Source: Geodermatophilaceae bacterium (GTDB taxonomy: Bacteria; Actinomycetota; Actinomycetes; Mycobacteriales; Geodermatophilaceae). From it: a DNA stretch of 34,017 nucleotides. Below, one piece after another: positions 25,851 to 32,388 of the stretch. The DNA is taken from NCBI GenBank assembly GCA_013812145.1, contig JACCTY010000168.1:1-34017 (forward strand), read 5' to 3'. The translations under genes and the position numbers were made by a program. Every line of letters starts with the position of its first letter. The stretch's first letter is position 1. Below the pieces are notes generated by a model that had not been told where the DNA came from, did not search any database, and was given only the letters and a program-made list of their open reading frames with translations.

Positions 25851-27320
25851 TTGGAGCGTCTGTTGCTCGTCGACATCCGGCCCGTCGCCAGGCTCCGTGG
25901 CAAGACACCGGTGGACGTGGCGACGCCGCTCACGGCCGTGTTGGAAGCGCTACGGGACGGAACCGCCGACCTGTCCCGCGTGCGGGTGGTCTGCGACTGG
26001 ATCCAGTACAAGGAGAACTTCCGCGAGGTCGTCGATGTCCGGCAGACGGCGCCTGGTTCGCCGGACCAGGAACTCGAGGTGGCGGTTGATCTGCGGCGGG
26101 CGGGGGACTGCGATGTCGCGGACCTGACCCGCCGTCTGATGACCCAAAACGGCAGCCCGGATGCGCCGGACCGGGTCTGGCTGGAGGGGTGGCTCCCGGG
26201 GAGCAAAGGCTGTATCTGGGCGTTCAACCGGTTGTACTGGCAGGCATTGCACCTGTGGGAGCGGGCCACCGGGCGGGGGTACGAGTCGGCTCTGCCGGGT
26301 GGCGCGAGCGACGCCCGGAACGAGGCGGCGGTCCGCGAGCTGGTCAGCGACCTGTTCCGGATCTGGGATGACCTGTCCGAACGTCGGGCGTTGCCCGAGG
26401 AGCTGTACGTCGTCGAACTCGGCGTCGGCAACGGCAACCAGGCCAAGGCCTGGCTGGATGAGTTCAGGGTCATGGATCAAGCGCACGGCCGCGACTACTA
26501 CCGCCGCCTGCACTACCTGATGTGTGACTACTCCCCGCACGTCCTGGACATCGCCCGCAAGACAGTAGCGGGGCACGGCGAGCATGTCAGCTCGCTGGTA
26601 CTCGACGCCACGACGCCCACCACCGTCCTAGGCTTTCTGCGCTACAAGGTCTTCCTCGTCTACGTCTCCAACGTGTACGACAACCTGCCCTGCGACGAGG
26701 TAGTGAACATCGGCGGGCGGGCCTACTGCGTAGAGACCCGGGCGTTCCTGCCCGAGGCCGAGGCCGCGGAGATCGCCGCCACGGCCTCCACCGCGACGAC
26801 CGACCTCCCGGCGCTGATCCACAAGCTGCTCCAGATCGGCCCAGAGCTGGTCGCCGAGGCGATGCCGACACAGTTCACCGATGTGGACGCGGCGGTCGAA
26901 TTCTGGCGGCGGTGCTGGCAGTCGCTGCGCCGCGCGGAGCGGTTCGTCCCGATGCCGGGCCTTGACTCCTACCAGATCACCTCCAGCCTGTCGGGGGAGA
27001 TGCTGCGTCCACTGCTCGACGCGCACGGGGATCTGCGCATCAACGTCAACAACGGCGCCGTGGCGAGCTTCGTCGACACGTTGCCGCTGCTGCATCCGTA
27101 CGGCCGTCTGGTTTGCCACGACCTGTTCATCACCGACGTGGAGCAGAGCAGGACCGGCTTTCGTGGACCGGGCAAGTACGACGGCTCGGTGGTCAACTGG
27201 GTCAACGGGCCGCTGCTGGCGCACATCGGCTCGCGCAAGGGCATCGACGTTCGCTACGCGCCGTTCGCCCACCGGAAGGGCACCAGCATCGTGACGATGA
27301 CCGCTCAGGTCAGGGACTGA
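25851..27320 (+). CDS. SAM-dependent methyltransferase-like protein, partner of a MetE-like enzyme
   Basis: A 489-residue protein whose centre has a class I SAM-binding glycine loop, 'VVELGVGNGNQAKAW' at about residues 187-201, followed at normal spacing by 'HYLMCDYSPHVLDIARKTV' and 'VFLVYVSNVYDNLP'. The N-terminal 110 residues ('VDWIQYKENF'-like region reading 'VVCDWIQYKENFREVVDVR') and the C-terminal 'LRINVNNGAVASFVDTLPLLHPYGRLVCHDLFITDV' are not in any family I can name. The next gene starts 1 bp after its stop, so the two are translated together. The only start in a frame open since the previous gene's stop is TTG at 25851; GAGG lies 12 nt before it. No promoter is obvious. Confidence 0.7.
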   Translation: MERLLLVDIRPVARLRGKTPVDVATPLTAVLEALRDGTADLSRVRVVCDWIQYKENFREVVDVRQTAPGSPDQELEVAVDLRRAGDCDVADLTRRLMTQNGSPDAPDRVWLEGWLPGSKGCIWAFNRLYWQALHLWERATGRGYESALPGGASDARNEAAVRELVSDLFRIWDDLSERRALPEELYVVELGVGNGNQAKAWLDEFRVMDQAHGRDYYRRLHYLMCDYSPHVLDIARKTVAGHGEHVSSLVLDATTPTTVLGFLRYKVFLVYVSNVYDNLPCDEVVNIGGRAYCVETRAFLPEAEAAEIAATASTATTDLPALIHKLLQIGPELVAEAMPTQFTDVDAAVEFWRRCWQSLRRAERFVPMPGLDSYQITSSLSGEMLRPLLDAHGDLRINVNNGAVASFVDTLPLLHPYGRLVCHDLFITDVEQSRTGFRGPGKYDGSVVNWVNGPLLAHIGSRKGIDVRYAPFAHRKGTSIVTMTAQVRD

Positions 27321-27321
27321 C

Positions 27322-28359
27322 ATGCCGATACTCCTGCCGACGACCGTGGTCGGGTCGTACTCCGTGCCGGAATGGCTGGAGCGGCTCAAGACCGACTTCT
27401 ACCGCAAGCGGCTCAGCGCCGCCCACCTGGCCGACGTCCACGACGTTGCCGTCAAGGCGGCCATCAAGGACCAGGAACTGGCCGGCATCGACATCGTCTC
27501 CGACGGTGAGCTGCGCCGTGACAACGACGTGGACTACCTGCTGGCCCGGATGCCCGGCGTACGAGCCACGACGACTGTCAAGTCCTATTACTTCGACTAC
27601 TACGACCTCGTCGTTGCAACTCCCCTGACAGAGCAGCCGGTCGGCCTGGCCGAGGACTTCCGGTTCACCCGGGAACACACCGACAAGCCGATCAAGTTCT
27701 CCTTTACGGGACCTTTCTCGCTGTCCCGCCGGGTCAGGGACGAGGTGTACGGCGACCGGGCGGAACTGGTGCGAGCGCTCGCGCGGGCCCTGAACGCCGA
27801 GGCTCGTGACCTGGTTGGCGCCGGTGTCACCATGCTGCAGATCGACGAGCCGTTCCTTGCCGGCTACCCGGAGCAGGTCGCGCTGGCGGTGGAGGCGATC
27901 AACATCGTCACGGCCGGCGTCGAGGCCACCTGGGGCCTGCACGTCTGCTACGGCAACCGCTATGCCCGGCCCTCTTGGGAGGGGCACTACTCGTTCCTGT
28001 TCCCCACTGTGCTCGAGGCTCGGGTGGACCAGCTGATCCTGGAGTTCGCCCGTAAGGGGGACGAGGACCTCCCCGCGATCGCCGAACTCGGCTGGGACCG
28101 CGCGCTCGGTCTCGGCGTTCTGGACGTCAAGAGCGAGGACGTGGAGTCGCGCGACCAGGTGGCGATGCGGATCAGCCGGGCGCTGGAGGTGATCGACGCC
28201 GACAAACTGATCGTCAACCCGGACTGCGGTCTGCGGCACGTCTCGCCCCCGGTCGCCCGGGCCAAACTGCGCGCGATGGTCGAAGGCGCCGCGATGGTCC
28301 GCAACCGGCTGCTCGGCAGGTCCGAGGAACTCGTCTCAGCCGGCGACCCCGCGTCCTAG
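27322..28359 (+). CDS. MetE C-terminal-domain-like methyltransferase (core MetE)
   Basis: A 345-residue protein resembling only the catalytic barrel of cobalamin-independent methionine synthase. It begins 'LLPTTVVGSYSVPEWLERL', has 'GIDIVSDGELRRDND', 'TMLQIDEPFLAG', and retains the zinc ligands H207 and C209 in 'WGLHVCYGNR', E241 in 'ILEFARKG' and C302 in 'VNPDCGLRH'. The N-terminal folate-binding barrel of full MetE is absent. Such short forms transfer a methyl or alkyl group to a thiol, but the donor cannot be folate in the usual way. The tightly coupled methyltransferase-like gene upstream suggests a two-part pathway. Methionine synthesis is one option among several. Confidence 0.8.
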   Translation: MPILLPTTVVGSYSVPEWLERLKTDFYRKRLSAAHLADVHDVAVKAAIKDQELAGIDIVSDGELRRDNDVDYLLARMPGVRATTTVKSYYFDYYDLVVATPLTEQPVGLAEDFRFTREHTDKPIKFSFTGPFSLSRRVRDEVYGDRAELVRALARALNAEARDLVGAGVTMLQIDEPFLAGYPEQVALAVEAINIVTAGVEATWGLHVCYGNRYARPSWEGHYSFLFPTVLEARVDQLILEFARKGDEDLPAIAELGWDRALGLGVLDVKSEDVESRDQVAMRISRALEVIDADKLIVNPDCGLRHVSPPVARAKLRAMVEGAAMVRNRLLGRSEELVSAGDPAS

Positions 28360-29157: not shown

Positions 29158-30327
29158 TCAGGAGACGCCGAGCTTCTCCGCGGCCATCCGGGTGCCCTCG
29201 ACCCGGCTGGTGATCTTCTGGAAGGCGACGTCGCGCGCGTAGTCCGGCGAGCCGTGGTTGGGCTTCTCGTCGATGCTGAACGGTGAGAAGCCGCAGTCGT
29301 CGGTGGAGCCGATCTGCTGCTTGTCGATGAAGTTCGCCGCCCGGACGAGGTTGTCGCAGATCTCCTGCGCCCCCTCCACCCGCGGGCTCTGGGTGACTGT
29401 GCTGCCGAGGTAGGCCATCTGGGTCACGCCCTCGGCGTCGGAGCGCAGGTTCTTACCGATCGTCTCGTACACCGGGTCCTTCTCCCGCTCGGAGGCGAGC
29501 TGGATCAGGAAGTAGCCGGCGTTGATGTCGAACATGCTGGCCAGCAGGTTGTTGTAGGGCACGTCGGCGGAGTGCACCGAGTCACGGTCTCCGCCGGGAC
29601 AGGTGTGGATGCCGATGTTCTGCCGCTCCTCGGCGGAGAACCGGGCCATCACCCGGTTGTTCAGCTCGATGAAGTGCGGGAGCAGGCCGGCGCCGGTCCA
29701 CGGGTTACGGGGGTCCTCGCGGGTGGCCAGCCGGCCCTCGGTGAAGTCCACCGACACCCGCTCGGCACCGGCGGCGAACGCCTCGCGGATGTCCCGCTCG
29801 CATTCGTCGATCAGCGTTGCCTCGAAGTCCTCACGGGAGTAGCCCTCTACCGGGTCCTTGAGCGGGTACAGCAGGGCGAGCATCGACGGGGCGATGACGG
29901 CCTGCTTCATCGGCTTGGTGGCGTAGCCGATCGACTTGCGCAGCGTGTCCGCTGCGTGCTGGTTGTACTTGAACGGGCCGCTCTCCAGCTTCGGCAGCTG
30001 GCGACCGTGACCGTCGGCGAAGATGGCGAAGAACTGTCCCCCTGGGCCGAGGCCCGGGGCGAGCCCGGTGCCGGCGAGAGTGTCGGCGATCGGGTACGTC
30101 GCAAAGGATGACCAGCGCTGTTCTCCGTCGGAGATGATCGGCGACCCGGTGGCCTCGAACTTCTCGATCGAGTCCTTGACCGCGGCGTCCTGCAACTGCT
30201 CGAGCTCATCCTTGCCGATGTCGCCCGAGTCGTACTTCGCGTACGCCTCCTGCAACTTCGCCGGCCGGGGCAGCGAACCTACCGGCTCGGTGGGGATTCC
30301 AGTGGCCGCTCTGGGGTCGTAAGCCAT
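29158..30327 (-). CDS. Cobalamin-independent methionine synthase II family protein
   Basis: A 389-residue zinc-dependent alkyl-transferase-fold protein of the MetE-like family (COG0620), clearly different from the 345-residue MetE-like protein nearby. 'IPTEPVGSLPRP' starts the barrel, 'SPIISDGEQRW' follows, and the likely zinc ligands are H241 and C243 in 'IGIHTCPGGDRDS' and C345 in 'STDDCGFSPF'. Members of this branch include epoxyalkane:coenzyme M transferase relatives, so methionine synthesis is not proven. ATG at 30327 has GAGAGGA 7 nt upstream. A strong promoter lies 177 bp upstream, leaving a long leader. GNAT follows in the same direction. Confidence 0.85.
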   Translation of the reverse strand: MAYDPRAATGIPTEPVGSLPRPAKLQEAYAKYDSGDIGKDELEQLQDAAVKDSIEKFEATGSPIISDGEQRWSSFATYPIADTLAGTGLAPGLGPGGQFFAIFADGHGRQLPKLESGPFKYNQHAADTLRKSIGYATKPMKQAVIAPSMLALLYPLKDPVEGYSREDFEATLIDECERDIREAFAAGAERVSVDFTEGRLATREDPRNPWTGAGLLPHFIELNNRVMARFSAEERQNIGIHTCPGGDRDSVHSADVPYNNLLASMFDINAGYFLIQLASEREKDPVYETIGKNLRSDAEGVTQMAYLGSTVTQSPRVEGAQEICDNLVRAANFIDKQQIGSTDDCGFSPFSIDEKPNHGSPDYARDVAFQKITSRVEGTRMAAEKLGVS

Positions 30328-30497
30328 GGTTTCATCCTCTCGTGGATCGTCGATGACCGAGCGGTCGCTCAGCCGGGCGAACTCGAAGACTGCCGACCGA
30401 GCCGCCGTACGTCGGTTTCGGTGAAACCCATCGACAGGAGGGCGAAGCGGGACAGTTGGTCCCACGTCTGCCTAGACCGGGATGTGCCGCTACTAAT
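30328..30497 (-). promoter_or_regulatory. Long structured 5' leader of the MetE-like gene
   Basis: About 170 nt separate the predicted transcription start from the ATG. On the minus strand the leader can form hairpins GTGGGAC-CAACT-GTCCCGC, GGTTTC-ACC-GAAACC and GAGCG-AC-CGCTC. An open frame ('TWDQLSRFALLSMGFTETDV...') runs through it and ends in TGA before the gene. No B12 box or SAM riboswitch core was recognised. Confidence 0.4.
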
Positions 30498-31174: not shown

Positions 31175-32388
31175 ATCGCGCGTCGGGTCGTCGTCACCGG
31201 CGTGGGCATCGTCAGTCCGGTCGGGCCTGACGCCGAGTCGAGCTGGCAGGCGTTGCTGGCCGGTCGGTCCGGTGTCGCCGCCACCGCGGGCATTGACGTC
31301 ACGGACCTGCCCGTGCGGATCGCGGCGCAGGTACCGGATCTGGACGTCGCCGCGATGCTCGGCGTTCGGCAGACGCGAGCGTTGGACCGCTTCGCGCAGC
31401 TGGCCGTGATCGCCGCTCGGGAGGCGGTGATCAGTGCGGGCTGGGAGCTGACCGGCGGTCCGCGCTGGTCGACGGTCATCGGAACCGGGTTCGGCGGCGT
31501 CGAGACGTTCGAGCAGGCCATGATCACGCTGAGCCAGCGTGGGCCGAGGCGGATCAGTCCCTACACCGCGCCAGCGATGATCCCGAACGCCGCTGTGGCG
31601 GCGGTCGCCCTGGATGCCGGTGCCCGCGGGCAGTCGCTGTGCCCGACGACGGCCTGTGCCGCCGGCACTGACGCCGTCGGCCTCGGCGCCGACCTATCCG
31701 GTTGGGTCGAGCCGACGTCGTACTGGCTGGTGGCGCCGTGGCTCCCGTGACGCGCGCGATGTTGGCCTTTTTCGCCGGGACGCGGGCCGCCTCGACCCGC
31801 AACGACGAGCCGGAGCGGGCCTGCCGCCCCTTCGACCGGAACCGGGACGGGATGGTCATCGCCGAAGGCGCAGCCGTACTGGTGCTGGAGGACGCCGAGC
31901 TCGCAGCCGCGCGGGGAGCAACGGTGCTGTGCGAGGTCGTCGGCTATGCGGCGACCAGCGACGCCTACCACGTGACGGCTCCCGATCCGGCCGGGACCGC
32001 TGCCGAGGCCGCCCTCCGGCATGCGCTCTCCGTCGCCGGCGTGACGCGGACCGACCACGTCAACGCCCATGGCACCGGTACCCGGCTGGGAGACGCCGCG
32101 GAGGCGGCCGTGCTGTCGCGAGTTCTCGGTGCGGAGGTGCCCACGACGGCGACGAAGTCGATGACCGGCCATCTGATGGGCGCCGCCGGTGCACTCGAGG
32201 CGGCCGTCAGCGCGCTGGCCATCCGTGACCAGCGGATACCGCCGACGACCAATTGCGACGTACTGGACGCGGAGTGCGCCGGCGTTTCGGTGGTCCGGAC
32301 CGCTGTGGGCGCGGCGCTGCGCGACGTCGTCAGTACGAGTTTCGGTTTCGGCGGCCACAACGCGGTGCTGGTGCTGCGCCGGCCGTGA
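31175..32388 (+). pseudogene. Beta-ketoacyl-ACP synthase (FabF-like), frameshifted
   Basis: Conserved from 'RRVVVTGVGIVSPVG' through the active-site cysteine in 'CPTTACAAGTDAVGLGADL' (TGT at 31655), both catalytic histidines in 'HVNAHGTGTRLGD' and 'KSMTGHLMGAAGALEA', to the terminal 'STSFGFGGHNAVLVL'. The frame breaks at about 31695: GACCT-ATCCGG needs one more base to read D-L-I-R-L-G-R-A-D. The start is also odd: a GGAGG site at 31164-31168 is followed 6 nt later by ATC in the correct frame, not ATG or GTG; the first in-frame GTG (31202) would cut off the first beta strand. Otherwise all catalytic residues are intact, so decay is recent or the sequence contains an error. Confidence 0.85.

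Follow-up and report, generated by a model that had tools for sequence, protein, structure and literature searches.

A MidA-like methyltransferase gene and an adjoining core-MetE gene point to an undescribed methyl-group pathway in soil actinobacteria

In a 34,017-nucleotide contig of a Geodermatophilaceae bacterium (JACCTY010000168.1; hereafter the window, i.e., the whole stretch of DNA that was analysed), a gene for a methyltransferase-like protein (MT) is directly followed by a gene for a MetE-like protein with only the core of a methionine synthase (core-MetE; ME). This pair, together with the genes that surround its homologues in other genomes, suggests that soil actinobacteria have a pathway for methyl groups that has not been described. 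We give an even chance to the reading that MT and ME catalyse two steps of a dedicated methionine/S-adenosylmethionine (SAM) loop tied to one-carbon (C1) units on folate. The window corresponds to contig C164 of a draft genome (G000) of 3.08 Mb that is 95% complete.

Both open reading frames lie on the forward strand where the original prediction, made from the letters alone, had placed them. MT covers positions 25863..27320 and ME (345 aa) positions 27322..28359, with a single nucleotide between the TGA stop codon of MT (27318-27320) and the ATG of ME (27322). A length of 489 residues had first been given to MT, counted from a TTG at 25851; the gene stands, but a protein of 485 aa is more likely, with its start probably at TTG 25863, because homologous proteins begin at the residue matching this codon. 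A putative ribosome-binding site, GGAG (25853..25856, forward strand), can be read 6 nt before TTG 25863 (context GGAG-CGTCTG-TTG), and the rejected codon at 25851 overlaps it. Residue numbers of MT are counted below from 25851 (the 489-aa version). Among four loci of the window's genus, dN/dS ratios of 0.08-0.14 for MT and 0.08-0.11 for ME indicate purifying selection on both genes.

In a Pfam search, ME matched Meth_synt_2 with 159.6 bits, and Meth_synt_1 gave 21.1 bits, below its cut-off of 27, in line with the original reading of ME as an enzyme without a separate folate-barrel domain. The best solved relative is 3rpd (phmmer, 152.7 bits, E=1.5e-43), a MesD protein for which roles in zinc and homocysteine binding are assigned to single residues in the available text of PMC7857596; these roles were transferred through the ME/3rpd alignment. 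The equivalents of the zinc ligands that had been named at the outset (H207, C209, E241, and C302) are each kept in 78 of 78 ME sequences. Among the equivalents of the homocysteine-binding residues, E63 and D175 are likewise found in all 78 and S12 in 77, with one gap, and the slot of a MesD-specific tyrosine (3RPD Tyr226, located via a numbering offset) is filled by N212 in 78/78. Because zinc ligands and homocysteine residues are conserved, ME should hold homocysteine on zinc, much as a methionine synthase does. The conserved homocysteine-binding residues also favour homocysteine/methionine over a novel thiol as the substrate, and they would argue against thiol alkylation of the epoxyalkane:coenzyme M transferase type. 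As first suggested, the two proteins may nevertheless pass a methyl group directly from one to the other or form an alkylated thiol on the way. Judged by its sequence (Meth_synt_2 domain, H-C-E-C zinc ligands, S-E-D homocysteine residues, no folate barrel), ME is a putative core methionine synthase. It belongs to no NCBIfam methionine synthase equivalog that it matched, as the respective cut-offs were reached neither for PRK04326 (286.2 bits against 406), which we take to be the archaeal split-type methionine synthase model, nor for PRK09121 (178.3/392), PRK00957 (174.8/258), or PRK01207 (98.2/399).

MT scored 24.9 bits with Pfam Methyltransf_28, narrowly above the cut-off of 23.3, and no solved protein was found with it by sequence search (best E=0.38). 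The structure prediction proposed earlier was run for MT with AF2 from 72 aligned sequences (pLDDT 89.9, pTM 0.91), and the five top structural matches of the model are all MidA/COG1565 proteins (1zkd, 5zu0, 4f3n, 5ztz, and 4g67; VIA Z 18.2-18.8 over 270-292 residues, 10-16% identity), by a small margin over other SAM methyltransferases (Z 17.6 and below). The MidA-type fold spans residues 106-489, and residues 1-105 form a small, unplaced domain. Thus, one of the two regions that could not originally be placed turns out to be the C-terminal half of the MidA fold, and the other still has no match: the N-terminal part (137 aa), folded alone, found nothing in the PDB with Foldseek at E<=0.001 (best 0.49), with a model of moderate quality (pLDDT 77.1), so that a known fold is possible. 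The predicted SAM-type glycine loop is confirmed by conservation, with E189, G191, G193, and G195 identical in 82 of 82 sequences. The same holds for D226 and, in the N-terminal part, for D49, Q52, Y53, E76, D80, and R82. By Pfam score and modelled fold, MT is a member of the Methyltransf_28/MidA superfamily. The original prediction had named a known, unrelated family for the first gene as a finding that would count against it; the outcome is mixed, as a known superfamily (MidA/COG1565) was indeed found, yet membership does not imply which acceptor MT methylates. MidA acts on complex I, and the gene context of MT gives no hint of complex I arginine methylation.

The pairing of the two genes was examined with a scan of species-representative genomes (95 MT relatives, of which the best 80 of 95 were returned). 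ME directly follows MT in 78 of the 80 loci with at least 1.1 kb of downstream sequence, and the gap, taken to the start codon nearest the MT stop, is at most 20 nt in 71 of the 78 measured loci (median, 1). Loci without ME are L084, where MT is shortened and both MetF and ME are missing, and L093, which carries a 38% MT homologue. Across the window's own genome and 58 relatives, MT is present in 11 of 59 genomes and ME, at >=65% identity, in nine, all of them MT carriers; in the remaining two carriers (G018 and G031), which gave no close ME, MT is cut off by the end of its contig. In none of the 48 MT-less genomes did the search find a close ME, and all other ME matches in the set of 59 reach at most 174 bits, their identity not exceeding 38% over long stretches or 46% over a single piece of 81 residues. 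At E<=1e-60, a search of 394 class-level genomes returned the window's own ME and none in the 393 others, and MT occurs in two of 396 phylum-level genomes, the window's own and one with a distant homologue. The MT-ME system is rare, and co-occurrence, the check suggested for the proposed coupling, speaks strongly for it, as the two genes are not distributed independently in the genomes examined.

Among the matches listed, MT is carried by Pseudonocardia, Actinomycetospora, Nonomuraea, Microbispora, Mycobacterium, Micromonospora, Streptosporangiaceae, Desertimonas, and others, as well as by metagenome-assembled genomes (MAGs) labelled Chloroflexota or Proteobacteria; the closest relatives listed (86-89% identity) come from MAGs labelled Geodermatophilaceae bacterium. 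A plasmid-borne island was rejected (no match in 72,556 plasmid records), and so was a pair-specific signal in Mantel correlations, which, with r=0.71 for MT-ME, 0.82 for MT-MetK, and 0.76 for MT-MetF, reflect common descent of the gene set. Two variant MT genes were also observed. At L084 (7989-9329, Pseudonocardia acaciae), MT lacks its first ~38 residues, ME and MetF are gone, and the MetV-like gene is kept, which is probably a decaying copy. At L094 (G393:C369, 5417-6934, reverse strand), a 38% MT homologue without adjoining ME lies on a 7.3-kb contig and represents a distant MT branch in another context.

Outside the window's genus, the pair is usually embedded in genes of C1 metabolism, identified by clustering and by Pfam/NCBIfam searches on representatives. 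Their usual order is MetV-like (PF12225), MetF (PF02219), MT, ME, MetK, then PurU or Fhs, a PfkB kinase (presumably an adenosine kinase), SahH, and FolD, with the order of the last ones varying. MetK was found in 55 of 72 loci with at least 2.5 kb downstream, and MetF and the MetV-like gene in 46 and 47, respectively, of 74 loci with at least 1.6 kb upstream. Overall, 62 of 82 loci have at least one gene of the folate arm (MetV-like, MetF, FolD, PurU, or Fhs) and 61 of 82 at least one gene of the SAM arm (MetK, SahH, or kinase). PurU is present in 22/82 loci and Fhs in 8/82, never together (0/82; P=0.072, relatedness ignored), and of 10 loci with a FolD match, seven have PurU, one has Fhs, and two have neither. 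Of the 49 loci with full flanks, 17 carry a homocysteine S-methyltransferase-MTHFR fusion (NF006396; 484.9 against 453 bits in L035) and 21 a PucR regulator. Besides the operon MetF, G025, G045, and G055 each have another MetF elsewhere that scores higher and presumably serves housekeeping; G000 has a stronger MetF and one weak further match. Dipeptide- and branched-chain-type ABC transporter genes flank several loci.

Since this set of neighbours spells out a methyl loop, ME would be its entry and MT its exit. In the favoured loop, ME would methylate zinc-bound homocysteine to methionine, MetK would convert methionine to SAM, and MT would spend SAM on an acceptor, after which SahH and the PfkB kinase would clear S-adenosylhomocysteine and adenosine and regenerate homocysteine. 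The folate arm, i.e., the MetV-like protein, MetF, FolD, and PurU or Fhs, would couple the loop to C1-folate and formate. In the window's genus, where only the pair stays together, the other steps would come from genes elsewhere. The ME domain with its zinc and homocysteine residues, the SAM-type fold of MT, the pairing, and the neighbours are read from sequence or structure models; from them we infer the reactions, their direction, and any contact between MT and ME. We lean weakly towards a loop that runs in the direction of methyl disposal, because FolD together with PurU would let C1 units leave as formate. The folate arm would then end in formate, as in a chloromethane degrader whose growth on chloromethane, in the available text of PMC3621897, needs metF and purU as parts of a methyl-disposal route.

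Several points weigh against a dedicated loop or its proposed direction: (i) neither arm is found in 12 of 82 loci, including the window and its congeners L012-L014, and some of the neighbour-less loci lie on short contigs, but not L013, L023, L044, and L049; (ii) no constant substrate-specific gene was found in the flanks (104 flank proteins from 24 loci), FolD, with seven, being the only family matched by more than five; (iii) the lack of co-occurrence of PurU and Fhs has the P value given above, with relatedness ignored, which puts the direction on weak ground; (iv) the structure model of MT was built without SAM; (v) ATP is spent in a SAM loop, which would be unexpected for a disposal route; and (vi) among the 82 loci, several belong to the same genus and a few to the same genome (e.g., L018 and L030; L043 and L044), so that they are not independent.

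An alternative that we consider unlikely is a two-part methionine synthase in which MT would act as methyl-donor subunit: it would bind or make a methylated intermediate and hand the methyl group to the zinc-bound homocysteine of ME in place of the folate barrel, as has been proposed for MesX with MesD; methyl-tetrahydrofolate (methyl-THF) from the operon MetF would be a possible source. The near-strict pairing with its close spacing, the missing folate barrel of ME, and the MetF genes upstream fit this, and the conserved but unplaced N-domain of MT could hold a second ligand. Consistent with this, the MetE folate domain (PF08267) was not found in the 95% complete G000 draft, in a search in which 9 of 14 controls matched. 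However, the fold and the conserved loop of MT are of the SAM methyltransferase type, no MesX (PF08908) match was obtained for MT in the Pfam scan, and a plain methionine synthase would leave the SAM-arm genes unexplained. In addition, 48 of the 54 genomes that carry the pair, among them G000, have MetH above cut-off, and 28 of the 54 have the MetE folate domain above cut-off (25 of them with at least 188 bits). The pair is therefore usually not the only or main methionine supply, and we rejected it as the sole methionine synthase in general, which could still apply to the remaining six genomes. Among these, MetH is in pieces in G002, G479, and G484 and represented by partial domain matches in G491, G493, and G494; the MetE N-domain is strong in G494 and no more than weak in G491 and G493. 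Since neither MetH nor MetE is clearly there in G491 and G493 (Chloroflexota MAGs; L055 and L066), the pair might be the main methionine synthase in these two, which suits a two-part enzyme.

To about the same degree, we doubt that the gene set serves anabolism as a self-contained methyl-supply cycle, in which C1 units from formate or serine would pass via methyl-THF and methionine to SAM and feed one heavily used methylation by MT, e.g., of a cell component or metabolite. MetF, ME, MetK, MT, SahH, and the kinase together do make up an activated methyl cycle, and Fhs, where present, can run from formate. The formate-releasing PurU is found in more loci than Fhs and accompanies most FolD genes, ME has no folate barrel for the use of methyl-THF, and the ABC transporter genes near several loci suggest uptake of a substrate, all of which argue against a purely anabolic cycle.

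Less probable still is a specific form of disposal in which MT is a SAM:tetrahydrofolate methyltransferase that closes a new pathway: ME would load the methyl group of a methylated nutrient onto homocysteine, MetK would make SAM, and MetF-MetV with FolD and PurU or Fhs would oxidize the methyl group to formate. If true, homocysteine would carry the methyl groups catalytically in an aerobic route that needs no corrinoid. Finally, it is very doubtful that MT, as a protein-arginine-type MidA enzyme, and ME, as a diverged methionine synthase, have no more in common than their operon and are not linked in a pathway; both come from known superfamilies and methionine supply is mostly covered by MetH, but the pair is adjacent across genera and classes, ME is absent together with a shortened MT in L084, and both genes are under purifying selection in a genus that has not kept the rest of the operon, all of which speaks for a function common to both.

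The dedicated methionine/SAM loop has partial parallels among known systems. ME shares with MesD, as described in the available text of Price et al. 2021 (PMC7857596), a MetE core without folate barrel, all zinc and homocysteine residues, one dedicated partner gene, and often a MetH in the same genome. The partner of ME, in contrast, is a MidA-fold methyltransferase and that of MesD is DUF1852 (MesX), and ME has MetF in its operon in many loci, whereas MesD needs no MetF (PMC7857596). The criterion for MesD in that source is about 55% identity or more to ACIAD3523 (BLASTp, 390 bits; phmmer, 560 bits); in place of ACIAD3523, ME was compared with the MesD structure 3rpd, to which its phmmer score is only the 152.7 bits given above. 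MT as a MesX homologue was rejected on the Pfam scan, and a separate PF08908 scan gave no match in 8 genomes, but none in any control either, so that absence is not proven. By sequence, the pair does not appear to belong to MesD/MesX, the partner not being DUF1852. A split MetE, in the same source an archaeal catalytic subunit plus a folate subunit (PMC7857596), resembles the pair in its two adjacent genes and in PRK04326 being the best NCBIfam model of ME; it differs in that ME stays below the cut-off of this model and MT has no Meth_synt_1 (PF08267) match. Without a folate domain in the partner, the pair would not be classed as a split MetE either.

A third core-MetE, MesB of Dehalococcoides (Deobald et al. 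2020, PMC7005905), is encoded together with SAM synthetase and SAH hydrolase in one operon, comparable to ME. MesB differs in using methylcobalamin, thought to be fed by the anaerobic CoFeSP, and the available text of that report mentions no MidA-like partner. By analogy, the pair may resemble MesD with MesX in function, as a core methionine synthase and its dedicated partner, placed in an activated-methyl-cycle operon (as in Dehalococcoides). On the side of MT, MidA/NDUFAF7 (COG1565) provides the best structural matches, and MT departs from it by the extra N-domain, the C1 gene context, and the low identity. The folate-arm genes are shared with MetF2-FolD-PurU of Methylobacterium extorquens CM4, which turn folate-bound methyl groups into formate (PMC3621897, available text); there, the methyl group enters by the corrinoid system CmuA/CmuB, which the pair and the SAM loop would replace here.

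Among the matches listed for open-licence PubMed Central papers (titles and abstract openings), no description of the MT-ME pair or its operon was found. Core methionine synthases leave an open end in methionine biosynthesis: a folate site is missing, and what donates the methyl group in the cell has mostly been predicted and not proven (PMC7857596, available text). ME would add a further core-MetE family with a dedicated partner of its own, unlike MesX and often located among genes for nearly every other step of a methyl cycle. The gene set offers concrete genes with which to test the origin and fate of such methyl groups, and it would assign a role to one branch of the MidA-like methyltransferases.

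Other genes near the operon vary between lineages. An F420-dependent luciferase-like oxidoreductase (TIGR03560, shown for L083) is encoded upstream in eight, mostly Streptosporangiaceae-type loci (L079, L081, L083, L086, L057, L085, L087, and L088). MetF is missing in four of these, but a plain replacement of MetF was rejected, as both occur together in L057, L085, L087, and L088. BphC-like proteins are encoded after the operon at loci of Nonomuraea and Microbispora (L029, L034, and L045; BphC_D1 was matched by 3 of the 104 flank proteins), and an aldolase was recognized by eye near L091; a methoxy-aromatic substrate was set aside as a lead only, with no constant aromatic gene among the 25 of 105 flank families listed. 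Riboswitch control was also rejected, since a search of the window and of 14 loci at gathering thresholds yielded tRNAs only. In some Pseudonocardia loci (L020, 13237-17518; L028, 15006-16870), a PEP-utilizer mobile-domain protein and a 477-aa protein are encoded downstream, the latter with no Pfam match (L028 copy) and no NCBIfam match (L020 copy); a pyruvate phosphate dikinase-like protein comes next in L020.

Further MetE-like genes were observed in G000, which has five in all: ME, a distant second Meth_synt_2 protein in the window (ME2), two on C95, and one match on C58. ME2 (29158..30465, reverse strand; Pfam 24.0 bits against a cut-off of 21; 1ypx, E=2.8e-7) is ~21% identical to ME and not part of an operon with it at the window; ME2 matches occur in 13 of 85 pair loci, one of them the window. 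The two core-MetE paralogues on C95 (L095, 51-983 and 9120-10220) lie within ~10 kb of each other, are ~32% identical to ME, and have genes nearby that resemble, by eye, CoA transferases and a CoA ligase. On C85 (L096, 1796-8783), a BCCT transporter, an MttB-like methyltransferase, a corrinoid protein, and a pterin methyltransferase were recognized by eye, likely a quaternary-amine demethylation set, of which the corrinoid and pterin proteins also matched the metH model. Downstream of the pair in the window, a ketosynthase-like gene (31202-32388, forward strand; by eye) appears to be split over the overlapping frames 31202-31750 and 31702-32388, which would reflect either an assembly frameshift or a broken gene.

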